Of a stretch of 64,000 bases of DNA, positions 2,552 through 33,781 are shown in pieces. The notes under the pieces were generated by a model. That model was not told the DNA's origin. It searched no databases and was given only the letters and a program-made list of their open reading frames with translations. The number at the start of each line of letters is the position of its first letter. Position 1 is the stretch's first letter. The stretch covers positions 1-64,000 of the forward strand of contig WVSM01000004.1 in NCBI GenBank assembly GCA_015689645.1. Direction: 5' to 3'. The DNA comes from Rhodobacterales bacterium HKCCE4037 (lineage in GTDB: Bacteria > Pseudomonadota > Alphaproteobacteria > Rhodobacterales > Rhodobacteraceae). Position numbers and translations under genes: made by a program.

Positions 2552-3949
2552 ATGAGCATGACAGGTTTTCTGCGTGCATGCCTTCTGGGCTGCGCAACAC
2601 TACTTTTCCAACCGGCATTGATGGCCGAGGCGCAGGCATTGCGCGTCGTCGAAGGTGAAAGCACGGGCACGCTGCGGGTGCCGATGAACAGGGCCGTGGT
2701 CGTCGAAAGCGACATGTTGTTCGCCGAGCTTTCCGTGGCCAACCCGGCCATCGCGGATATTGCAACGCTGTCGGAACGGTCGATTTACGTCCTGGGCCGT
2801 GCCCCCGGGCGTACCACCATGACGCTTCTGGGCCCCGACGGTTCTTTGATCGCCAACGTCGAGATCCAGGTCATCCCCGATGTTGCCGAACTGCGCGAAC
2901 GCCTGCGTGAGATCCTTCCCGGCGAACATGTCGAGGTGCGCACCGCCGCCGACGGCATCGTGCTTTCGGGCACGGTCAGCTCGGCCCTCGCGGTTGACCG
3001 CGCGATGGAACTGGCGGGCCGCTACGGTGCCGTCTCCAACCTCATGATGGTCGGCGGCCAGCAGCAGGTGATGCTTCAGGTTCGTTTCGCCGAGATGCAG
3101 CGTTCTGTCCGGCAGGATTTGTCGGCGTCCCTCGGCATCGGCGCGACGAGCGGGAACTTCGGCACGACGCTGGGTGCCGGCACCGATAGTGCCGCGACGT
3201 TCGGCAACGGCAACGGCCTTGGTGCCGGAACGCTCAACGGCCGCCGCGGTGGCCTCGGTGTCAGCTTTGCCGCCGGTGGTTTGCAACTGTCGGTCCTGCT
3301 GGAAGCGCTGGAATCGAATGGCCTTGTGCGCACGCTGGCGGAGCCGAACCTGACAGCCCTGAGCGGTCAGACCGCCGATTTCCTAGCAGGCGGCGAATTC
3401 CCGGTTCCGACCGAATCCGAATCCGGCGGCGTCACGGTCGATTACCGACCGTTCGGTGTGCAACTGAACTTCACACCCACCGTCGTGGATGGCGATATCA
3501 TCAACCTCAGCCTCGAGGCGGAGATCTCGTCGATCGGTGAAGCCTTCGCCGGCACCTCCGCACCGTCGGTCAGCACACGCTCGGCCTCGACGACTGTCGA
3601 GCTGCGCGATGGCGACAGCTTCGCAATCGCCGGATTGTTGCAGGATGACTTCCGAAGCTCCATTGGCCAGGTTCCGTGGCTCGGCGATCTGCCGGTGCTC
3701 GGTGCGCTGTTCCGGTCGGCCAGTTACCAGCGCCAGCAATCGGAACTGGTGATCATCGTCACGGCCCACCTTGTCAGCCCGGTACGCGGCGATGCCCTCG
3801 CCTTGCCGACCGACCGGGTGCGGATCCCAACCGAGCAGGAGCTGTTCTTCCTGGGCGAGGTCACCGGCCGCGCCCCCGCTGTCGGAACACCTGCCGGCGA
3901 AGTGGCGCAGCAGGATTTCTCGGGATCCTATGGCTACGTTCTGGACTGA
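2552..3949 (+). CDS. cpaC: Tad secretin CpaC/RcpA
   Basis: 465 residues from the chosen start. CpaC forms the outer-membrane secretin channel through which the Tad pilus passes. A signal peptide of about 29 residues ends near AEAQA. The N-terminal pilus-assembly/BON-like region (about 35-190) precedes the secretin domain, recognisable by GVQLNFTPTV, STRSASTTVELRDG, SFAIAGLLQDDF, PWLGDLPVLGALF and ELVIIVTAHLV. The frame is open 60 codons further upstream, but that stretch holds the cpaB terminator. ATG 2552 has GAGG upstream and gives a proper signal peptide. The next gene's ribosome-binding site overlaps this stop. Confidence 0.94.
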   Translation: MSMTGFLRACLLGCATLLFQPALMAEAQALRVVEGESTGTLRVPMNRAVVVESDMLFAELSVANPAIADIATLSERSIYVLGRAPGRTTMTLLGPDGSLIANVEIQVIPDVAELRERLREILPGEHVEVRTAADGIVLSGTVSSALAVDRAMELAGRYGAVSNLMMVGGQQQVMLQVRFAEMQRSVRQDLSASLGIGATSGNFGTTLGAGTDSAATFGNGNGLGAGTLNGRRGGLGVSFAAGGLQLSVLLEALESNGLVRTLAEPNLTALSGQTADFLAGGEFPVPTESESGGVTVDYRPFGVQLNFTPTVVDGDIINLSLEAEISSIGEAFAGTSAPSVSTRSASTTVELRDGDSFAIAGLLQDDFRSSIGQVPWLGDLPVLGALFRSASYQRQQSELVIIVTAHLVSPVRGDALALPTDRVRIPTEQELFFLGEVTGRAPAVGTPAGEVAQQDFSGSYGYVLD

Positions 3950-3959
3950 GGAGGCCACG

Positions 3960-4592
3960 ATGACGCAGAAACTTCCCTCACGGCGCGCGCTTCTGGCAGG
4001 CATGGGATCGACGCTGGCACTTTCGGCCTGCACCGGAACCTATCCCGTCGAAACCGGTCGCCCGCTAGGCTCCGAACTCGACGAGGCGGGCAATTTCGGC
4101 GATCCTACGCGCCAGAACATCGGCGTGCACAATGGCGATATCAACTATGCCGCCCTTCTGGGCGAACGCTTTGCTGCCGAGGTGCCGACGACCATCAACT
4201 TCGCCTTCAACTCGGCCGAACTCGACGCCACGGCGCGCAACATCCTGGCACAGCAGGCGCATTTCATCCGGGCTTTCCCAGAGGTGCGCTTCTCGGTTTA
4301 CGGCCACACCGACGCCGTCGGCAGCAACGCCTACAACCAGCGACTTGGCCTGCGCCGGGCGCGGGAAGCGGTGAATTACCTGGTGTTCCAGGGCGTCAAC
4401 CGGGGCCGGCTTCAGGCGCTCGTGTCGCTTGGGGAAACGCAGCCGATCGTTCCGACCGAGATGGAAGAGCGCCGCAATCGCCGCACCGTGACCGAGGTCA
4501 GCGGCTTCGTGCAAACCAGCGACCTCGTTCTCGACGGACGCTACGCCGAGATCATCTACCGCAACTATCGCTCGGGCGGCGGGGGCGGATAA
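3960..4592 (+). CDS. OmpA-family lipoprotein of the Tad locus
   Basis: 210 residues. The N-terminus PSRRALLAG...LSAC combines a twin-arginine-like pair (residues 8-9) with a lipobox Cys at 24, so it is probably a lipoprotein, possibly exported by Tat. The C-terminal OmpA/MotB domain (about 80-190) shows NFAFNSAELD, VYGHTDAVGSNAYNQRLGLRRA and RRNRRTV, the peptidoglycan-binding signature. It sits between cpaC and cpaE, where other Tad loci have cpaD, so it likely anchors the secretin to the cell wall (inference). GAGGAGG overlaps the cpaC stop and fixes the start at 3960. The tail is Gly-rich. Confidence 0.85.
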   Translation: MTQKLPSRRALLAGMGSTLALSACTGTYPVETGRPLGSELDEAGNFGDPTRQNIGVHNGDINYAALLGERFAAEVPTTINFAFNSAELDATARNILAQQAHFIRAFPEVRFSVYGHTDAVGSNAYNQRLGLRRAREAVNYLVFQGVNRGRLQALVSLGETQPIVPTEMEERRNRRTVTEVSGFVQTSDLVLDGRYAEIIYRNYRSGGGGG

Positions 4593-4620
4593 CGCCAACC
4601 CCAATAAAACAAGCGTCTCG

Positions 4621-4649
4621 AACCGCGTCGGAGCCCCTCCGGCGCGGTT
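4621..4649 (+). terminator. Hairpin terminator after the OmpA lipoprotein gene
   Basis: A 13-bp stem (AACCGCG-T-CGGAG against CTCCG-G-CGCGGTT, one T-G wobble) is followed by TTCATTT. The U-tract is weak. The 286-base gap 4593-4878 also holds a CCGGGC-AA-GCCCGG inverted repeat at 4846-4859 just before cpaE. Confidence 0.65.
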
Positions 4650-4878
4650 CTTCATTTGGAGACAAAGCCCCCACGAGCCGTGGAATTGTAAACGTATTCC
4701 CTTTTTTGTGTCCCATTCTCGCCGTTTTTTCCCAGCACGTTCACCCTTGGGAAGGACCGGAATGACATGAGTCGTTCCGATCCCGTCTCGGTAAGTGGTT
4801 CGGCTGATTGAGCAGTTAAGCCGCCACCTGTGTTCGAAATATGATCCGGGCAAGCCCGGGCAGATTGGGAATTGAGGA

Positions 4879-6141
4879 ATGAGCAGCGGATTGGCACTGA
4901 AATCCGAACCAGCCCCCATCGTCGCTTGCACGGTGTCGAGTATGGTTCACCACTTCGGTCTCTTGATCGAAGACATGGAAAACGAACTTGGCGAAGCCTG
5001 GGGTGACCTGGGATTCGACGAGGCTCGTGAGTTCATCAACGCGCTCGAACCCGGAAATCTTGAATTCATCGCGCTTGCCGTCCGGGAAGAGGATGAAACC
5101 GACCTTGGCCGTGTGGGTGAGGTGATCCGCGCCGCCCGCTCCAAGGACATCAAGGTCATCCTGATCCCGGAAAACCTTACAACCGCAGGCCTGCGCGAGT
5201 TGCTGCGCCTCGGCGCCGACGATTTCGTGCCTTATCCGCTGGCCGAAGGGGCGCTGCACGACGCGATCGTGAAGATCCGCACCGAAGTGCAAGTCCCGCC
5301 CCCTCCGCAAGCGACCAGCCCCGAAGCGCCGCGGGTTGCGACCGGTCAGCGCCTCGACGGGCAATCGGCGATCTTCGCCGTCCAGAATCTCGCCGGCGGC
5401 ACCGGGGCCACCACCCTTGCCGTCAACATGGCGTGGGAACTGGCCAACATCGACAAGACCAACCCGCCATCGGTCTGCGTCATAGACCTCGATCTGCAGA
5501 ACGGTTCGGTCGCGACCTACCTGGATCTGCCGCGCCGCGAGATCATGCTGGAGATGCTGCAAGACGCCACCTCGATGGACGCCCAAGGCTTCAAGCAGGC
5601 GCTGGTCGGTTTTGAAGACAAGCTCTCGGTCTTCACAGCCCCGTCCGAGATCGTGCCGCTCGATATCATCGGTCCCGAGGAAGTGACCGCGGTGCTCGAC
5701 CTGGCCGCTGAATGCTTCGACATCGTCATCATCGACATGCCGCGCACCATGGTCATGTGGACCGACACGGTTCTGAACCGCGCCGACATGTATTTCGCGA
5801 CGCTGGAACTGGACCTGCGCTCGGCCCAGAACGCGATGCGTTTCATCAAGGCGCTGCGGTCCGAGGACCTGCCCCTCGACAAGGTGCAGTATGTCCTCAA
5901 CCGCGCGCCCGGAATGACCGACCTGAACGGCAAGACCCGGATGAAGAAGATGGCCGAAAGCCTCGGCGTCAGCTTCTCCAACATGTTGCCGGACGGCGGC
6001 AAGCAGGTCGTGCAGAGCTGCGACAACGGCGAACCCCTGGCGGAATCGGCCAAGAAGAACGCGCTGCGCAAGGAAATCTCCAAGCTGGCTGAAGGGCTTT
6101 ACAAGGCCATGGTCGGCGAGGCCAAGGCAAAGGGTAAGTAG
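4879..6141 (+). CDS. cpaE: Tad localisation ATPase CpaE/TadZ
   Basis: 420 residues. CpaE/TadZ proteins are MinD/ParA-like and position the Tad machine at the pole. An N-terminal receiver-like region (about 20-130) is followed by a Pro-rich linker and the ATPase domain. The P-loop reads AGGTGATTLAVN (about 170-180), without the Lys expected in GKT, as in other CpaE proteins. Other motifs are VCVIDLDLQNGSVATYLDL and IVIIDMPR. The stop is immediately followed by the cpaF start. GAGGA lies directly against the ATG, unusually close; a TTG at 4891 is an alternative start. Confidence 0.93.
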   Translation: MSSGLALKSEPAPIVACTVSSMVHHFGLLIEDMENELGEAWGDLGFDEAREFINALEPGNLEFIALAVREEDETDLGRVGEVIRAARSKDIKVILIPENLTTAGLRELLRLGADDFVPYPLAEGALHDAIVKIRTEVQVPPPPQATSPEAPRVATGQRLDGQSAIFAVQNLAGGTGATTLAVNMAWELANIDKTNPPSVCVIDLDLQNGSVATYLDLPRREIMLEMLQDATSMDAQGFKQALVGFEDKLSVFTAPSEIVPLDIIGPEEVTAVLDLAAECFDIVIIDMPRTMVMWTDTVLNRADMYFATLELDLRSAQNAMRFIKALRSEDLPLDKVQYVLNRAPGMTDLNGKTRMKKMAESLGVSFSNMLPDGGKQVVQSCDNGEPLAESAKKNALRKEISKLAEGLYKAMVGEAKAKGK

Positions 6142-7632
6142 ATGTTCTCGAAGTATAAGAAATCTTCCGGAAATGGCTCCATTTCGCCTTTGGCAGACAT
6201 TACGAAATCCGCCAAATCGGAAGAGCGTGCCACGCCGCCCGCACCGGCTGCGAAAACGGTGGAGGCCCCTGCCCCCAAGGTAGCCCGTCAGCCCGCCAAG
6301 CTGTCCCCGGTGCCCAAAGCCGCACCGGTCGCCGCGTCCGAGGACAAGGATCTCAAGCGTCGGCAGCGCCTCGACGAGATCAAGACCGAGATGCACCACC
6401 GGCTTCTCGACAACCTCAACCTGTCCGCCCTCGAAAACGCCAAGGACAGCGAATTGCGCGCGGAAATCACCGCGATCACCAGCGAACAGCTGGCCGAGAT
6501 GGGCGTGGTCCTCAACCGCGAGGACCGGCAGACGCTCAACACCGAACTCTTCGACGAAGTGACGGGCCTTGGTCCGCTCGAACCGCTTCTGCAGGACGAA
6601 ACCGTCAACGATATTCTGGTCAACGGTCCGAACCGCGTGTTCATCGAACGTGCGGGCCGGCTGGAACTGTCCGACGTGCGCTTCAAGGACGAACGCCACC
6701 TGCTGCGCATCATCGACAAGATCGTGTCCGCCGTGGGCCGCCGCGTCGATGAATCGAACCCTTACGTCGACGCCCGTCTCAAGGACGGCTCTCGTTTCAA
6801 CGCCATGGTTCCGCCCGTCGCCGTCGACGGCTCTCTGGTCTCCATTCGTAAGTTCAAGAAAGAGAAACTGGGCATCGACGACCTGGTGAATTTCGGTGCC
6901 TTCTCGGAAGAAATGGCCGCCTATCTCCAGGCCGCCGTCGCCTGCCGCCTCAACGTCATCGTCTCCGGCGGTACCGGTTCCGGTAAGACGACCACGCTCA
7001 ACGCGCTGTCGTCCTTCATCGACAACAAGGAACGCGTTCTGACGATCGAGGATACGGCGGAACTTCAGCTTCAGCAGATCCACGTGGGCCGGATGGAAAG
7101 CCGCCCGCCCAACGTCGAGGGCAAAGGCGCCGTCACGCAGCGCGACTGTCTGCGCAACGCGCTCAGGATGCGTCCTGACCGCATCATCGTGGGTGAAACG
7201 CGCGGCGAGGAAGTGATCGACATGCTGCAGGCCATGAACACGGGTCACGACGGCTCGATGACGACGATCCACGCCAACAACGCCCGCGACGCCTGCTCGC
7301 GCCTTGAGAACATGGTCGCCATGGCCGGGATCGAGATGCCGCTGAAGGCCGTCCGCGCCCAGATCTCCTCGGCCGTGCACCTGATCGTGCAGGCCTCGCG
7401 CCTTCAGGACGGCTCGCGCCGCATGGTCTCGATCACCGAGGTGACGGGCATGGAAGGCGAAGTCATCTCCATGCAGGAGGTGTTCCGCTACCAGCGCACC
7501 GGCCTGGAACCCGATGGCAAGATCATCGGCCATTTCACCGCCTGCGGCGTGCGCTCGCATTACTCCGAACGGTTCCGGCAGTGGGGCTACGACCTGCCCA
7601 ACGCCATCTACGAACCCATCGCAGCCCAATAA
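6142..7632 (+). CDS. cpaF: Tad pilus secretion ATPase CpaF/TadA
   Basis: 496 residues. Hexameric type II/IV secretion ATPase that powers Tad pilus polymerisation at the inner membrane. The N-terminal about 70 residues are Ala/Pro/Lys-rich and disordered. The conserved core has [14 protein letters not shown] and NDILVNGP, Walker [10 protein letters not shown] near residue 275, [12 protein letters not shown] and the [14 protein letters not shown] box. It starts on the base after the cpaE stop and is followed 12 bases later by tadB, so cpaE-cpaF-tadB-tadC is very likely one transcript. Confidence 0.96.
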
Positions 7633-25492: not shown

Positions 25493-26881
25493 TCAACGCG
25501 AAACGAGGAATGTGATGAATTGTCCCGCCGGGGGGCGGAGTAAGACACTGTGGGTCGGACCAAATCCAAGCCCTGCACAGGCAACCAGACGCTCCCCCTC
25601 GAAGATCGAAGGCAACGCCAACGCTGCGCGCTGCGATAATCCGCCTTTTGGTTTCTCTGGAACTTGCTGCCAGCCGTCTGGACCAAGTGCCCGCACGAAG
25701 AAAGTGTCGGGTCCTTGAACGGACAGGCTCCACCTATTGTCCCAGAGTGACCCGAGAGGCGCGTAAAGGTCCTTTACGGCGTTGTATTCTCGCATAACCC
25801 GAACATTTGCTTTCTCCGCGATCGCACGAACCCCGTGCAAGGTTCCACTGCCACCTGCAAGGACAACCTCCAAGAGGTCTTCCATGGGCGCGGACCGGGG
25901 ACGGTAAGGGTTGGACGAAACCCATTGCAACGCAGCCGCCAGAAGTCGCATCTGAGTGTCACGTTCGATCGCAGCAAATGCGTCACGGTCGAACAAAAGG
26001 TCGCCGCTAGGCACCGAGCCAAACAAGCCCCCGCTTGGTACACCCGCGATGACGTCCTCGGCTACGACGTCCCTTGCAACATCGACGGCCCGGACTGCCA
26101 AAGCCTCTGAAGCGCGCGACATGCGCGTGGCGGTCTCAGACAAGGTGCCAATGTCGAGTCCCAAACTCACTATTGCCTGCCGAGTGCGAGCCCGGTCAAA
26201 GCGAGGGTCCTCGTTGGATGGGTCGTCCACATAAGGCACCTTCAGCGTGTCGATGTGGTGGCGAAGATCGGACCGTGAGACTCTTAAAAGCGGACGGATC
26301 AGGTGGAAGCCCTGAAGGCCGGACGGGACGCCAAGGGTCCGCTGGTGCCATTTTGGAGGCGGCACGGTCTGGGTGACATCCTCGGGCGGCAACGGCGACA
26401 TCGACCCACGATGCGGTTTCACGTGGCGGCTTTCCGCCATCGCCGACAGCCCCTCCACCCCCGACCCGCGGGCCAGCCGCATCAGGAAAGTCTCGGCCAC
26501 GTCATCCTGCGTGTGTGCCATCAGCACGTGTTCGATCCCGCCGCGCCAGCGGTCGATCAGCTCCAGCCGGGCGCGGCGCGCTGCGTCCTGCAAGTTGCCC
26601 TGCCCGTCCCAGTGCCAGCGCAGCGTCGCATGCGGATGCCCGAGCAACGCGCATTCGCGGGCGACCATCTCCGCCTCGTCCGCGCTCTCTTCCCGCAACC
26701 CGTGATCCACCGTCACGACCCACAGCTTGACGCCGAAGACACGCGCCCAGTCGTGGGCCAGCGCCAGCATCGCCATGCTGTCACCGCCGCCCGAAACGGC
26801 AAGTGCAATATCCGTGGGGAAGTCAGGCCCGAGCAGCGCGCCCATGCGGGCGGCAAACCGCTCGGGCAGCGTGTCGTTCAC
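25493..26881 (-). CDS. tilS: tRNA(Ile)-lysidine synthase TilS
   Basis: 462 residues. Converts C34 of tRNA-Ile(CAU) to lysidine so it reads AUA. N-terminal PP-loop ATPase domain with [20 protein letters not shown] (about 22-42), VDHGLREES and [18 protein letters not shown]. The C-terminal part is divergent. The start is GTG 26881, overlapping the cpoB stop as GTGA, which is the common tilS position after cpoB. An earlier ATG at 26971 would lie inside cpoB. Pairing of tilS with ftsH is a widespread arrangement. Confidence 0.94.
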
Positions 26882-27744
26882 TGGCAGCCAAGCCGCCCGC
26901 GTTCCGCCTGTGCCTCGGCCACCGAGGGGCTTCCGGGGTAGCGCACGGCCACTTCGGCCAGCGTCAGGCAAGCCTCTTCCGTCTGGCCGATCTGCGCCAG
27001 CGCCACGCCAAGCGAGGTCAGCGCAGACGGCGCGCGCTGGCCATCGGGCGCGGCGGAGAAACTGTCAAGGAAGGCGCGCGCCGCGGGGCTCCACCGGCCC
27101 TGGTTGGCCTCGGCCTCACCCCGCAGGTAATGCGCATCCGCCGATAGCGGGCTGCCGGGATAGGTTTCGGTGAAGCCCTGGAACATGATCGCCGCATCGG
27201 CGAACTGGCCAGCCTCGAAGGCGGTGCGGGCGCGGTTGAAATCCTCTTCCTCGGCCACGGCAAGGTTCGCACCGCCCGCCACGGAACCGGCCACGGCGTC
27301 AGGCAGGGTCGACGACGCGATATCGCCGATCGGGGCCGGTGCCGGGTTGCCACCACCCGTGGCAGGCGTGACGCCCCCCAGCGAGGGCGTGTCGCCGAGC
27401 GAGCCGATGTCGCAATCGGATTCCAGCTCGCACAGCCGGAATTCAAGGTCGCCGATCCGGTTGGTCCCGTCGCGCACGACGCTGTCGATGTCGATCTGGA
27501 TGCGTTCGGTCAGCGCGGTCAGGCGCTGAACCTCGGCCTCGATCGCGTTGACCCGGTCGATCGTGCTGCCGGTGCCGCCGGACCCGCCCGCGCCGCCGGT
27601 GGTGTTCAACTCACCGCGCAGGCGCTGGATTTCCACGAACAGGACCGAAAGCTCCTGCCGGATGTCGGCAAGGGTCTGCGCCCGGTCCTGCGCCAATGCG
27701 GGACCGGCCACCAGAAGCGCGCAAAGGACAAGGACCAGCCGCAT
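26878..27744 (-). CDS. cpoB: Tol-Pal system protein CpoB (YbgF)
   Basis: 288 residues. Periplasmic partner of TolA that couples outer-membrane constriction to septal peptidoglycan synthesis. Signal peptide MRLVLVLCALLVAGPALA. N-terminal coiled coil (about 25-105), a Gly/Pro-rich linker, then C-terminal TPRs (about 165-285: FNRARTAFEAGQFADAAIMF, GSPLSADAHYLRGEAEANQG). Cysteines near 106-113 and at the extreme C-terminus could form disulfides. It begins three bases after the pal stop. Confidence 0.93.
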   Translation of the reverse strand: MRLVLVLCALLVAGPALAQDRAQTLADIRQELSVLFVEIQRLRGELNTTGGAGGSGGTGSTIDRVNAIEAEVQRLTALTERIQIDIDSVVRDGTNRIGDLEFRLCELESDCDIGSLGDTPSLGGVTPATGGGNPAPAPIGDIASSTLPDAVAGSVAGGANLAVAEEEDFNRARTAFEAGQFADAAIMFQGFTETYPGSPLSADAHYLRGEAEANQGRWSPAARAFLDSFSAAPDGQRAPSALTSLGVALAQIGQTEEACLTLAEVAVRYPGSPSVAEAQAERGRLGCQ

Positions 27745-27746
27745 AC

Positions 27747-28265
27747 TTAGGCCCCCAGACCGGCGGAAATCACCGTCACCGCGCGTCGGTTCTGGCTGTA
27801 GCAGGCTTCGGTCGAGCAGATCTCGATCGGGCGCTCCTTGCCGTAGGAGATGGTGCGCAGCCGGCTGGCCGGCACCCCTTGCGAAATCAGGTATTCCTGC
27901 ACCGCGGCGGCACGTCGTGCGCCAAGGGCGAGGTTGTATTCCCGCGTGCCCTGCTCATCCGCGTGACCTTCGATCAGCGCGGTGAATTCGGGGTTGGACA
28001 GCAGCCACTGCGCCTGGCCGGCGAGCGTCGCCTGCGCCTGCGACGACAGGGTCGACTGGTCCACCGCGAACAGCACGCGGTCGCCGATCACCTGGTTGAA
28101 ATAGGCCGGGCTTGACGGATCGCCGATGCCGCCGGCTCCGGCCCCTGCGGCGCCAAGCCCGCCCGCCGCATCATCGCCGCGGAAGCCGCCCTGCGAACAG
28201 GCGGCCAGCGCCATCGTGCCAACAAGAAGGACAACGGGGGCCTTGCGTAGGAAAGAAATCATCAT
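27747..28265 (-). CDS. pal: Peptidoglycan-associated lipoprotein Pal
   Basis: 172 residues. Outer-membrane lipoprotein of the Tol-Pal complex that binds peptidoglycan. The signal peptide ends LAAC (lipobox Cys23). A Gly/Ala-rich linker is followed by the OmpA-like domain (about 65-165) with FAVDQSTLSSQAQ, IEGHADEQGTREYNLALGARRA and RLRTISYGKERP. A start at either 28265 or 28262 is possible (MM). It lies between tolB and cpoB as expected. Confidence 0.96.
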   Translation of the reverse strand: MMISFLRKAPVVLLVGTMALAACSQGGFRGDDAAGGLGAAGAGAGGIGDPSSPAYFNQVIGDRVLFAVDQSTLSSQAQATLAGQAQWLLSNPEFTALIEGHADEQGTREYNLALGARRAAAVQEYLISQGVPASRLRTISYGKERPIEICSTEACYSQNRRAVTVISAGLGA

Positions 28266-28334: not shown

Positions 28335-29663
28335 TTAACTCTGAAGAGGTCCCCAGGCCGGGTCCGATGCCATGCCGGGCGTTGCGACCCGTTGCAGGTT
28401 CCGCCCCGAGATATCGACCGAGTAGACCGCCGGTGCCCCGTCGTCGCCCGGGGTTTCGCGGGTGAACATCAAGACGCGTCCGTTCGGTGCCCAGGTCGGC
28501 CCTTCGTCGAGGAAGGACGAGGTCAGAAGCCGCTGTTCCGAGCCATCGGTGCGCATCACACCGATGTGGAACCGCCCATCCGCCTGGTAGGTGAAGGCGA
28601 TGTAGTCGCCGCGCGGCGACCAGACCGGCGTGCCGTAGCGCCCGTCCCCGGTCGAAATCCGCCGCCCCTCGCCACCTCCGGCGGGCATGACGTAGATCTG
28701 TTGCTGGCCGGTGCGATCGCTCTCGAACACGATCTGGCTGCCATCGGGGCTGAACGACGGGGCCGTTTCAATGGAAGGCGACGACGTGAGTTGCTGGCGC
28801 GAGCCGGTTGCAAGGTCGATCCCGTAAATGTCGGAATTGCCGCCCTGTTCAAGGCTCAGCACCACGGTCTGGCCCGACGGTGCGAACCGCGGGCTGAAGG
28901 TCATCGTGCCGCCGGAAATGGCCTCCAGCGGACGGCGCTGCACCGAGGCCACGTCCATCACGTAAACCTGCGGCGAGCCGCTCTCGTAGCTGGTGTAGAG
29001 GATGCGGTCGCCCTGCGGCGAGAAGCGCGGGGCCAGAACCAGCGCGCGGCTGTCGGTTAGGTACTGCACGTTGGCCCCGTCGTAATCCATGATCGCCAGC
29101 CGCTTGAGACGGGCGTTCTTCGGACCTTCCTCGTGGATGAAGGCAACGCGGGTGTCGAAATAGCCGCTTTCGCCGGTGATCCGGCTGTAGACCTGGTCGG
29201 CCACGGTGTGTGCCATGCGCCGCCAGCTGTCGACGGGACCGACGAATTGCAGCCCCTCGCCAAGCGGGGCCTGGCTGAAGACGTCGAACAGACGGAACCG
29301 CACCGCGATCTGTCCGTCGGCGCGGTTCTCGACTTCGCCGGTGATCAGCGCCTGCGCGTTGATCGCCTGCCAATCGGGATAGCTGACCGGCGCGTTGAAG
29401 CTGGTGACCTGGCTAATGTAGGCGTCGGGCGGGATCTGCCGGAACAGGCCGGTGCCGCGCAAATCGGCGGCGATCACCCGGCTGATGTCCGCGGCCACTT
29501 CGCCCTGCCCGATGAAGGTGGGCAGCGCGAAGGGCAAGGGCTCGATCACGCCTTCGGTGATTTCCAGCCGCAGGGGGCCGTTCTGCGCCAATGCCACGTG
29601 GGGCAGCGCGCTCGAGGCCAGAAGCAGGCCAGATGTTCCGATGAAATTCCGGCGTGTCAGCAT
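28335..29663 (-). CDS. tolB: Tol-Pal beta-propeller protein TolB
   Basis: 442 residues. Periplasmic propeller that binds Pal and TolA. The N-terminal domain (about 30-165) precedes WD40-like repeats with [44 protein letters not shown] and [13 protein letters not shown]. The signal sequence is [17 protein letters not shown]...VALA, a twin-arginine type with RR followed by NF, so export by Tat rather than Sec is likely. A 172-base gap separates it from the TolA-like gene upstream. Confidence 0.95.
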
Positions 29664-29835
29664 AACGCCACCTCTCTCTCAAATTGGTGCGGGCAGACCC
29701 GCCTTCCAGATAAGTTCTGTTTACTCATTGTCATCTTACCACGCCTGGTGCCGGGGCAAAGTTGATGTCGCCGTCCCCGCCCAACGGGCGAACGCGGGGC
29801 GGGCCGTTTTGGATCCACTGATGGCAGGGAGCTGA

Positions 29836-31359
29836 TCATCTCAGGCGGACTCCGTCGCGGTCGAAGACAAGGGTTGCAGGTTGCGTCGCGGGTTGCGCCT
29901 CAGACGCTTCGGCACAGGCGACGAGCGCGGTGCGCGCGGCACCGTAAGCCTCGGAAGCAGAGGACGACAGCACCCGGGCAAAACCGATCAGGCGGATGCT
30001 TCCGGCGGCGGGCATGTTCATCTCGTCGAGCGCCACCTCGACCGAGAGGCTGGCCCACCCCGCCTCGGCGCTCAGGTTGGCGTATTGCCAGCAGATCGCG
30101 GCCTCGCTGATCATCCGGTCCAGCGCGGCAAAGTCCGGTTCGGGCAGGTCCGGCGCGGTGTCCAAACCATCCGGCAGATCTTCCGCCAAGGGCATGTCCG
30201 GCATGGCGAGCGGCGCGATGCCCAAGGGTGCCGGGCGCGGGTCCGTCAGCAGCACGGCGGCCATCGGCTCGGACGCCGGCGGCTGCGGTTGCGCCGTCTG
30301 GTCGAGCGCGTCCGGCCCATGGGGAAGCGCCCCCTGCGGCAGCGCCGAATAGGGGAATGCATCGGGCGACGGGACCGACAAGGAGGCCGGCGCGCGGGCG
30401 CGGATGGGCACGGGGCTCTCGCCCGGCAACAGAACGGCGGAAAGCGGGCTGGCGTGTGGGGCCAGCGGTGCCGAAACGCCCTCCTGCGCCGGGGGACCTT
30501 CGGGCCGCGGCCGTGACAGCACCGGTGCGGAATCCTCCTGCGGAACAAGAAACGCCGCGGGCTGAACGGCGGGGCGGCGATTGCCCTGCACCCCCGGCAA
30601 CAGGACCGCCGAAAGGGCCGCCGGCTGGTTCATCGGTGACATGCGCGACACGGCCTGCACCACGTTGGGGATTGGCGCACTCGGCCCCGACTGGCCGGCG
30701 GCGATCAGCGCCGGGTCAAAGGCAACGCTGCCTTCGGTCGCCATGCCCTCGTCCGCGCCCGCTTGCGGGGCGGTCGCCATGATTTCACGGGCCTCACCGG
30801 CCAGTTCCACGGCAAGCGTCTCGGCCATGGCGACGGCGTCGAAGGTTTCACCGACAGCATCGGCTGCGGCGACGGCGGGCGTGTCCTGCGGCTCGACCAC
30901 AGCGGGTTCGGCGTCCCGCAGCGCCTCGATCACCGCCACCTCGATCGGCGGCAGCTCAGAGTCTGTTTCGACCTCGCGCGGCCGTCGCGATGGGCGCGGG
31001 CCGGAATAGGCGGCATCGACGATCAGGGGGCCGGTCCCCGTGACGACAAGGTCCGTCGGGCGCGGCCGCGGCCTTTGTGCCGACGGCAACGGGCGCTGAA
31101 CATCGGGTGCGACGACAGAGGGATGCGACAGGATCACGCCGCGCGTCTCACCGGTTGCATCCAGCAACACGCCCCCGGACCCTCCGGACGCGATCAACGG
31201 GGCAGGCGATGGAGCGCGCGTGACCTCCGCCGCGGTGCCCTGCGGCGCCGGGCGCGCGGAAATCCACATCCCCGGCCTCTCGTTCAGGGCGGTCTGCGCG
31301 GCAAGCGGCGAGGCCGAGGCCATCAGCGACAGGATGATTGCGGACCGGACCATGCTCAT
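29836..31359 (-). CDS. Secreted Pro/Ala-rich protein with a TolA-C-terminal-like domain
   Basis: 507 residues, not a named family to me. An N-terminal signal peptide (MSMVRSAIILSLMASASPLAAQ) is followed by about 390 residues of low-complexity Pro/Ala/Val sequence. Within it a short motif, P(L/M)(S/A)AVLL, recurs three times or so (LSAVLLPGVQ, LSAVLLPGES, MAAVLLTDPR). The last 87 residues resemble the TolA C-terminal domain of the neighbouring tolA: ICWQYANLS against ACWNVGSLS, and AYGAARTALVAC against AYEAARRAILRC at the same spacing. AAGGAGG fixes the start at 31359. It sits between tolA and tolB. It is likely a periplasmic TolA paralog without the membrane anchor (inference). Confidence 0.8.
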   Translation of the reverse strand: MSMVRSAIILSLMASASPLAAQTALNERPGMWISARPAPQGTAAEVTRAPSPAPLIASGGSGGVLLDATGETRGVILSHPSVVAPDVQRPLPSAQRPRPRPTDLVVTGTGPLIVDAAYSGPRPSRRPREVETDSELPPIEVAVIEALRDAEPAVVEPQDTPAVAAADAVGETFDAVAMAETLAVELAGEAREIMATAPQAGADEGMATEGSVAFDPALIAAGQSGPSAPIPNVVQAVSRMSPMNQPAALSAVLLPGVQGNRRPAVQPAAFLVPQEDSAPVLSRPRPEGPPAQEGVSAPLAPHASPLSAVLLPGESPVPIRARAPASLSVPSPDAFPYSALPQGALPHGPDALDQTAQPQPPASEPMAAVLLTDPRPAPLGIAPLAMPDMPLAEDLPDGLDTAPDLPEPDFAALDRMISEAAICWQYANLSAEAGWASLSVEVALDEMNMPAAGSIRLIGFARVLSSSASEAYGAARTALVACAEASEAQPATQPATLVFDRDGVRLR

Positions 31360-31441
31360 GGGGCCGCCTCCTTCTTTACCGTACACGGGAAAGGCACCGG
31401 AACGGTGCGTGGGGGCAGCTTGTGGGGATCAGGAGACCAGG

Positions 31442-32615: not shown

Positions 32616-33089
32616 TTACTCCCCCTCACCGTCCAGCGTGGGGCCGCCGGAATCCGTCACCAGGCCGATCTCGCGGAAACCTGCGGCATTGAGCGCGCCC
32701 ATCACCTGCATGACCTGCTCGTAAGGGATGCCGCCGTCGGCCCGCACGAAGATGCGCGGGCTGTCGCGCTCGGCGGCAATCGCCTGAAGGCGCGGGATGA
32801 TCTCGTCGCGGCTGACTTCCGTGGTCTGCAGCATGACGCGCCCGTCGGCGGCCAGCGTCACGGTCAACGGCTCCTCATTCTCCGATGGCAGAGCCTCGGC
32901 GGAGGTGTCGGGCAGGTCGATGGGCACACCGACCGTCATCAGCGGCGCGGCCACCATGAAGATGATCAGAAGACAGAGCATCACGTCCACGAAGGGCGTG
33001 ACGTTGATCTCGGACATCGGGCGGGCGCGAGACCGGCCCCTGCCCCGGCGGCGACGCTGACCGCCGCCCGTCTGGACGGAGGCGCCCAT
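32616..33089 (-). CDS. tolR: Tol-Pal proton-channel protein TolR
   Basis: 157 residues. ExbD/TolR family. A basic N-terminus (QRRRRGRGRSRARP) is followed by MSEINVTPFVDVMLCLLIIFMV, whose Asp is the proton-conducting residue. The periplasmic domain ends at about 145, followed by an acidic tail. Its ATG overlaps the tolQ stop by one base. Confidence 0.96.
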   Translation of the reverse strand: MGASVQTGGGQRRRRGRGRSRARPMSEINVTPFVDVMLCLLIIFMVAAPLMTVGVPIDLPDTSAEALPSENEEPLTVTLAADGRVMLQTTEVSRDEIIPRLQAIAAERDSPRIFVRADGGIPYEQVMQVMGALNAAGFREIGLVTDSGGPTLDGEGE

Positions 33090-33781
33090 CAGTCGAGCTG
33101 CCTGCTCAGCAGGGTGGAAAACTCATCCGCAAAGCCCTCGAAGGTCGCCACGATCTCGTCGGCATCACTCGACAGCTTGTTGTAGAGGATGACCGCCGGG
33201 ATCGCCGCCAGAAGGCCCAAGCCCGTGGCCAGAAGCGCCTCGGCGATACCGGGGGCGACGACTGCGAGCGAGGTCTGGCCCGAGATCGCGATTTCCTGGA
33301 ACGACCGCATGATGCCCCAGACCGTGCCGAACAGGCCAACGAAGGGCGCGGTCGCGCCGGTTGTGGCCAGGAAGTTCAACCCGTTGGTCATGCGCTGGCT
33401 TTCGCGCGCGATGGCCACGTCCATCGAGCGGTCGACGCGCTGCTGCACACCGGGGATCAGCGCCCCGTCATCGCGCAGGGACCGCCGCCATTCGGTCATG
33501 CCCGCCACGAAGACCCGCTCGGACGCGGATCGCGGGTTGTCGGCCACCTGGTCGTAAAGCTCGTCCAGCGGCTCCCCCGACCAGAAGGCATTGTCGAAGG
33601 CGGCGGCATTGGCGCGCGACCGCCGGAACATGGCGAATTTCGTGAAGGCGATCGCCCAGACCCAAACGGAGGCGGCGATCAGCGCCACCATCACGAGTTG
33701 GACGATGAAACTTGCACGGAAGAAAAGCGCAAAGAGGGTAAAATCCGCCTCCTGCGCCAAAGCGAGCGTTTCTTGTTCCAT
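33089..33781 (-). CDS. tolQ: Tol-Pal channel protein TolQ
   Basis: 230 residues. MotA/TolQ/ExbB family proton channel. Three membrane segments: about 22-45 (FIVQLVMVALIAASVWVWAI), about 140-165 (TGATAPFVGLFGTVWGIMRS) and 175-200 (ATGLGLLAAIPAVILYN). The proton-path Thr is in TTGATAPFVGLFGTVWG. A 111-base AT-rich gap to ybgC (33782-33892) could carry a tol promoter. Confidence 0.96.
   Translation of the reverse strand: MEQETLALAQEADFTLFALFFRASFIVQLVMVALIAASVWVWAIAFTKFAMFRRSRANAAAFDNAFWSGEPLDELYDQVADNPRSASERVFVAGMTEWRRSLRDDGALIPGVQQRVDRSMDVAIARESQRMTNGLNFLATTGATAPFVGLFGTVWGIMRSFQEIAISGQTSLAVVAPGIAEALLATGLGLLAAIPAVILYNKLSSDADEIVATFEGFADEFSTLLSRQLD

Follow-up and report, generated by a model that had tools for sequence, protein, structure and literature searches.

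An additional gene, here called L, lies between tolA and tolB on the same strand in all 13 genomes of the genus Roseicyclus that were compared, and the C-terminal domain (CTD) of its product is, on the evidence of alignments and profile comparisons, a homologue of the CTD of TolA (TolA-III). Where TolA carries an inner-membrane anchor, L looks to carry a signal peptide instead. We regard it as an even call that L acts as a soluble, force-uncoupled TolA-III, which would compete with or tune the contact between TolA and TolB in the machine that draws the outer membrane inward during division.

Gene L lies within the tol operon

Open reading frames and Pfam matches in the window (the whole 64,000-nt stretch of DNA that was analysed) gave the gene order tolQ-tolR-tolA-L-tolB-pal-cpoB on the minus strand, with the following features:

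33089..33781, minus: tolQ (Pfam MotA_ExbB)
32616..33089, minus: tolR (Pfam ExbD)
32608-31442, minus: tolA, with anchor MRRSLYASSAIHIALLAWVAFGG, acidic Pro/Ala linker and CTD at 31759-31445 (position and sequence)
31360..31376, minus: ribosome-binding-site-like AAGGAGG, directly 5' of the L start (sequence)
31359-29836 (ATG at 31359), minus: gene L, putatively secreted TolA-CTD paralogue, 507 aa plus stop (open reading frame, BLASTP, profiles)
31297..31359, minus: predicted signal peptide of L, residues 1-21, ending ...SPLAA/QTAL (hydropathy and inspection by eye, 13 L)
30109..31293, minus: Pro/Ala-rich linker of L, 395 residues (composition and conserved blocks)
29839..30108, minus: TolA-III-like CTD of L, residues 418-507, with Cys423 and Cys482 (BLASTP, profiles)
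29747..29839, minus: remains of another, decayed TolA-CTD gene (S), between L and tolB (alignment with loci L028, L029 and L030)
28335..29663, minus: tolB (Pfam TolB_N and PD40)
27747..28265, minus: pal (Pfam OmpA)
26878..27744, minus: cpoB/ybgF (Pfam TPR families)

The GC content of the three codon positions was 0.75/0.58/0.82 in L and 0.77/0.55/0.86 in tolA, a closeness that is as expected for a native coding frame. Of S, the window retains the 3' end and the start, the latter overlapping gene L at its end; ~390 nt of the middle are gone when compared with the relatives. The preliminary description of this DNA had spoken of an "extra Tol gene"; one intact extra gene does stand there, but the singular says too little, since the decayed S remnant lies there too. 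That description held neither this decayed copy, nor the up to two CTD genes per operon in the genus, nor the similar genes found elsewhere.

L combines a signal-peptide-like N-terminus with a Pro/Ala-rich linker

The layout of L is a signal-peptide-like N-terminus, the 395-residue linker and a CTD of ~90 residues. The N-terminus of the window's L, MSMVRSAIILSLMASASPLAAQ, resembles a cleavable signal peptide by hydropathy and by eye, in agreement with what had been claimed, and inspection of the same sequence revealed no lipobox. Across the 13 L proteins the leaders were short and hydrophobic and, by eye, had a signal-peptidase-like site at their end; six had a strict A-x-A there, and the remaining L read LAA/Q. 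Every one of the 13 TolA proteins of the genus opens with a hydrophobic helix that bears the His motor motif S/G-x-x-H. This motif was absent from the leaders of all 13 L and of the seven S proteins checked (one S protein carries GTEH further on, beyond the leader), and an inner-membrane anchor of the TolA or TonB type, which we looked for in the 13 L by hydropathy and motif, was not found. The linker, which bears out the Pro-rich stretch noted previously, contains 65 Pro and 69 Ala and no Cys; its acidic and basic residues number 47 and 23, as against 57 and 5 in the linker of the window's TolA.

The C-terminal domain of L is homologous to TolA-III

The last 90 residues of L aligned to the last 105 residues of the neighbouring TolA with 27/90 identity (BLASTP E 5e-8), sharing CW, AYxAARxA and the second Cys, and with one gap of five residues located C-terminal to the second Cys; the TolA-like end and the shared residues given in the preliminary description were thus both recovered. 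Not one of 5000 shuffles reached the score of this pair, either in local or in end-free global alignment (z 14.9 and 14.1, respectively). When profiles were compared with profiles, L matched 86 TolA rows, from which the TolA proteins of the genus had been left out, with 97.2% probability (E 4e-11), and an 80-row family TolA profile, built from other genera and families at loci where just one gene separates tolR from tolB, with E 4e-13, while five column-shuffled controls and one reversed control gave E 0.17-0.73 against the latter. The 80-locus profile detected L in 13/13 genomes of the genus (E 2e-4 to 2e-8, the E being that of the whole frame), and a TolA and S profile from which L was withheld recovered it in whole-genome searches of the 13 (E 2e-11 to 1.3e-6), with matches in each genome to tolA, L and, in eight of them, S, and to nothing elsewhere.

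Among 99 TolA CTDs both Cys were present in 86 and neither in 13, a single Cys being found in none (allowing one alignment column), and both are present in all 13 L. This co-occurrence suggests a disulphide in the L domain, which in the window's L would join Cys423 and Cys482. The sequence TLxFDxxGV, found in 13/13 L (LVFDRDGVRLR in that of the window), resembles the last strand and tail of TolA, ELVFNPQGMRMR. The loop leading from the last helix to the last strand is five residues shorter in L than in TolA, and L lacks the LPxExYxxW motif of TolA; the surface that meets the partner may therefore differ. In the S proteins the loop is retained and the MRLR-like tail is lost.

Curated family models provided no argument either way, since they matched neither the window's L nor its TolA: Pfam at E up to 1 gave no family for the window's L, TPR included, Pfam and NCBIfam (TIGR02794) gave no match for this L or for the window's own TolA, and Pfam gave none for two more L and two more TolA CTDs. 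Structure prediction placed the elements of the L CTD in the order helix-strand-strand-helix-strand at low confidence (pLDDT 48, pTM 0.36); this is the element order of TolA-III and TonB domains. The models of six L CTD sequences and of full-length L were of low confidence, the groove cannot be placed in them, and they carry no weight in what follows. A Foldseek search of the PDB with the low-confidence L CTD model had a best E of 0.21; TolA was absent from the 50 matches listed, and the matches to unrelated folds (Ohr, acetyltransferases and others, E at least 0.21) were treated as meaningless. Searching the sequences of solved structures gave no match with the L profile and one antibody match with the TolA/S profile (E 0.68), which was taken as chance.

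L is conserved and under purifying selection within the genus

The interval from tolR to tolB spans 2.6-3.4 kb in the genus, as against less than 1.5 kb in 61 of 67 other genera of the family. The start of L overlaps the stop of the preceding gene in 8 of the 13 genomes, or in nine if an upstream ATG in locus L039 is counted. At that locus (genome G120; 5397-5550, tolB-forward orientation) the L frame extends upstream, before the signal peptide, to an ATG overlapping the tolA stop, and this extension is possibly the fused leftover of a deleted S gene. S itself, a short further TolA-CTD gene, is present in eight of the 13 genomes and missing in five, and its place varies: it lies between tolA and L at L031, L035, L036 and L038, and after L at L028, L029, L030 and L032. 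In a collection of named species the L profile found five loci, all of them from Roseicyclus and within the 13 (G124, G128, G129, G130 and G131).

The L proteins of the other genomes are 39-58% identical to that of the window, and the frame is open in 13/13. Positions of the CTD that are invariant over the 13 include ICW, VxVxLDxxNxP, SIxLxGF, AA--AL--CA-A and TLxFDxxGV. A motif RPGxW(I/V), in which R28, P29, G30 and W32 are invariant in the 13, directly follows the signal peptide at the mature N-terminus, and the linker holds conserved blocks around APVLSRPxPxGP and FPxSALP, with SAVLLP recurring. For both the CTD and the linker, dN was lower than dS in every estimable pair (six pairs, one CTD pair being without a dS estimate, and four having a much larger dS than the two close pairs). 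In the two close pairs dN/dS was 0.018/0.051 and 0.023/0.197 for the CTD, 0.060/0.229 and 0.105/0.376 for the linker, and 0.003/0.154 and 0.008/0.304 for tolB, which is under stronger constraint than L. Purifying selection thus acts on L.

The TolA-binding segment of TolB, 20 residues in length, is identical in 12 of the 13 genomes and differs by one residue in L037. Within this segment, near the mature N-terminus, LRLEI (29559-29573, minus strand) is found in 13/13 genomes, and the same position reads LRIEI, LRIDI or LRITI in the eight readable of ten relatives printed. A duplicated TolA-binding segment in TolB was not seen by eye. The genus name Roseicyclus refers to a ring; literature on the shape of Roseicyclus gave nothing useful on a link to cell shape, and the idea was dropped.

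Loci L036 (genome G126) and L038 (genome G127) diverge locally within tolA. Over ~300 nt of the TolA CTD (~4457-4757 of L036, tolB-forward) their nucleotide identity is 55-77%, compared to 84-97% in the flanking tolA, tolR and S stretches, and dS is 1.29 in the TolA CTD, 0.47 in the TolA linker and 0.30 in tolB. Judged by this pattern, a local allele replacement has taken place in the TolA CTD. The L linker is also down to 73-77% in places between these two loci, so the TolA CTD is not the sole site of the drop in identity.

Extra TolA-III genes recur in the family

Scoring the best five candidates per genome, the L profile matched 58 of 295 genera of the family, its own included. In the 57 matched among the 294 other genera the score was at most 44 bits, compared to 598 for L, and the matches covered the C-terminal profile positions 344-493; a second L was therefore not found among these 294 genera (best five candidates per genome). 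Absence of the gene near tolA in close relatives, which would have spoken against the preliminary description, was not observed within the genus. Cross-checking 18 of the matched genera, we found that 17 matches were the TolA CTD adjoining tolB and one, in G076, a separate secreted protein. A single-sequence search with L in 120 genera of the family gave seven matches, one being L itself and the rest weak, with that of G004 covering the linker only.

A whole-genome search for the CTD in 119 other genera (best 40 candidates per genome) detected one or more copies in 111 of them; six genera have two or more. By position, the extra copies lie between tolA and tolB in G002, G004, G025, G032 and G063, and elsewhere in G076; one of the two extra copies of G004 is anchored. 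Among other genera of the family, 115 had a tolB match, and the tolB region was read for 68 of these, several whose tolB lies close to a contig end (G084 and G091 among them) being omitted; among genomes of the class from other families, 174 had such a match and 20 were read. An extra CTD gene was found in the tolQR-tolB region of 3 of 67 other family genera (L055, L070 and L104) and in none of 19 other families of the class, represented by one genome each. Loci L092 and L115, where no tolQ or tolR was found beside tolB, were left out of this operon count, and a second match at L090, in another frame over tolA (E 0.001), was dropped from the counts, as were second partial matches within the same frame. 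At L095, L110 and L111 the second open reading frames had no TolA-CTD match. Extra, mostly anchorless TolA-III genes thus recur in the family, a statement that concerns genes and is not a count of origins.

Their layouts differ. At L104 (G004; 3720-6914, tolB-forward) two anchored TolA-type genes are followed by a secreted-looking gene of 259 codons before tolB. A reverse-strand frame of 139 codons at L138 (G032) encodes a signal peptide and, almost immediately after it, a TolA CTD, and its predicted product is a natural minimal soluble TolA-III. The G076 gene (L003:1414-2403, minus strand) lies far from the tol locus and adjoins an open reading frame of 165 codons; its product, of 329 residues, begins like a signal peptide and contains a TolA CTD.

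In a tree of 124 CTD rows and 106 columns, made by a quick method, L formed one clade (100), with no resolved join to TolA and a stem of 2.31 changes per column. The S proteins of both positions grouped at 89, and with L055 and L070 weakly at 82, and the TolA CTD of L036 paired with that of L032.

Proposed role of L and alternative explanations

L would derive from a TolA-type protein, or from a CTD gene descended from one, and with a signal peptide instead of an anchor it would be exported and soluble in the periplasm. Its last beta strand would answer, by its place at the domain end, to the strand of TolA-III that TolB binds in E. coli and Pseudomonas, and L may accordingly bind the same partner segment, most likely the TolB N-terminus. 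In E. coli TolA, residues D418 and K420 and strand beta3 belong to the TolB site (PMC4339652), and in Pseudomonas the TolB N-terminus binds by beta-strand augmentation at low affinity (Kd ~40-200 uM; PMC7391070), so a soluble competitor could matter. Having no TolQR coupling, L cannot pull; uncoupled from TolQR and proton flow, it would compete with or buffer the force-bearing TolA, and would so set the amount of TolB that is detached from Pal by pulling; the long linker of L would keep the domain mobile or tether it through the conserved short motifs. Competing with TolA contacts or bridging them, as the preliminary description suggested, is plausible. In Rhodobacter sphaeroides tolQRAB is a single CenR-activated unit, and raised TolQRA-B levels were proposed by the authors to stop the normal TolB-Pal interaction (PMC10470753), so dose matters there. 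A wider reading, which we think fairly unlikely, is that soluble TolA-III constitutes a recurrent, unrecognised control layer of Tol-Pal, in which anchorless copies, evolved or retained beside tolA by lineages of the family, would clamp TolB without force, as a brake or reservoir governing how fast Pal is released where the cell divides, with the L linker adding an outer-envelope tether.

The same domain could have changed its partner: unlikely in our view, yet deserving consideration, is that the L CTD has exchanged TolB for some other protein of the envelope (CpoB, an outer-membrane protein, or a factor of the divisome or of peptidoglycan), the linker being a bridge and L an adaptor recruited to Tol-Pal. 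The altered loop before the last strand, the conserved linker blocks and RPGxW(I/V) motif, and the long stem in the CTD tree, by which the function may have moved far from TolA, all fit such a switch, and TolA-II is known to contact CpoB and TolA to contact PBP1B (PMC7391070); the last strand and tail of L, however, remain TolA-like. We give less weight to soluble L and S being decoys that soak up filamentous phages or bacteriocins for which TolA-III is the periplasmic receptor. Both g3p and colicins are known to target TolA-III, for which colicin N and g3p are rivals of TolB (PMC4339652, PMC7391070); the TolA CTD allele swap between L036 and L038, the gain or loss of S across the genus and its decayed copy in the window would fit the decoy reading. 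Yet none of the 13 genomes of the genus had a Zot (inovirus) match, L is present in every one of them with a CTD that is conserved rather than diversifying, and the identity drop between L036 and L038 reaches into the L linker.

Very improbable, finally, is that L is a tolerated, functionless by-product of tandem tolA duplication and decay. The adjoining S did decay in the window and is missing from five of the 13 genomes, and genera differ in their extra copies, but L is open in all 13 with dN below dS in CTD and linker, and keeps its invariant residues at 39-58% protein identity to the window's L. A soluble competitor or buffer for TolB remains the simplest reading.

Comparison with known systems

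A natural, conserved, force-uncoupled TolA-III would, if true, be a tool for separating force from TolB sequestration in Tol-Pal function, and L would show that a component has been gained by this operon, the genes of which have known or predicted essentiality in related alphaproteobacteria (PMC10470753). No description of a protein like L appeared among the matches listed in the open-licence literature (titles and starts of abstracts), and the parts covered of a 2025 survey of Tol force transducers, which reports a strongly conserved tol-pal operon order in Proteobacteria, make no mention of soluble TolA copies (PMC12204202).

L shares with TolA the homologous CTD, the Cys pair, the Pro/Ala-rich middle and the operon position, and differs from it in having a signal peptide instead of the inner-membrane helix and motor motif, a less acidic linker and a loop shorter by five residues. 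Levengood-Freyermuth and colleagues reportedly found in 1993 that soluble TolA-III fragments in the E. coli periplasm disturb Tol function; these fragments, like L, are TolA-III without an anchor, but they are laboratory constructs, whereas L, S and their relatives are natural genes, L and S within the operon. TonB and its paralogues are anchored transducers that work with the ExbB/ExbD motor. Paralogues of the TonB/HasB type resemble L in their related C-terminal domain and in arising by transducer duplication (PMC12204202), and differ from it in that L is without an anchor and its gene lies within the tol operon. CpoB/YbgF is a TPR and coiled-coil protein, unlike L, in which no TPR was found, but it is encoded in the tol operon, is soluble in the periplasm and modulates the machine (PMC7391070), and L is proposed to do alike.
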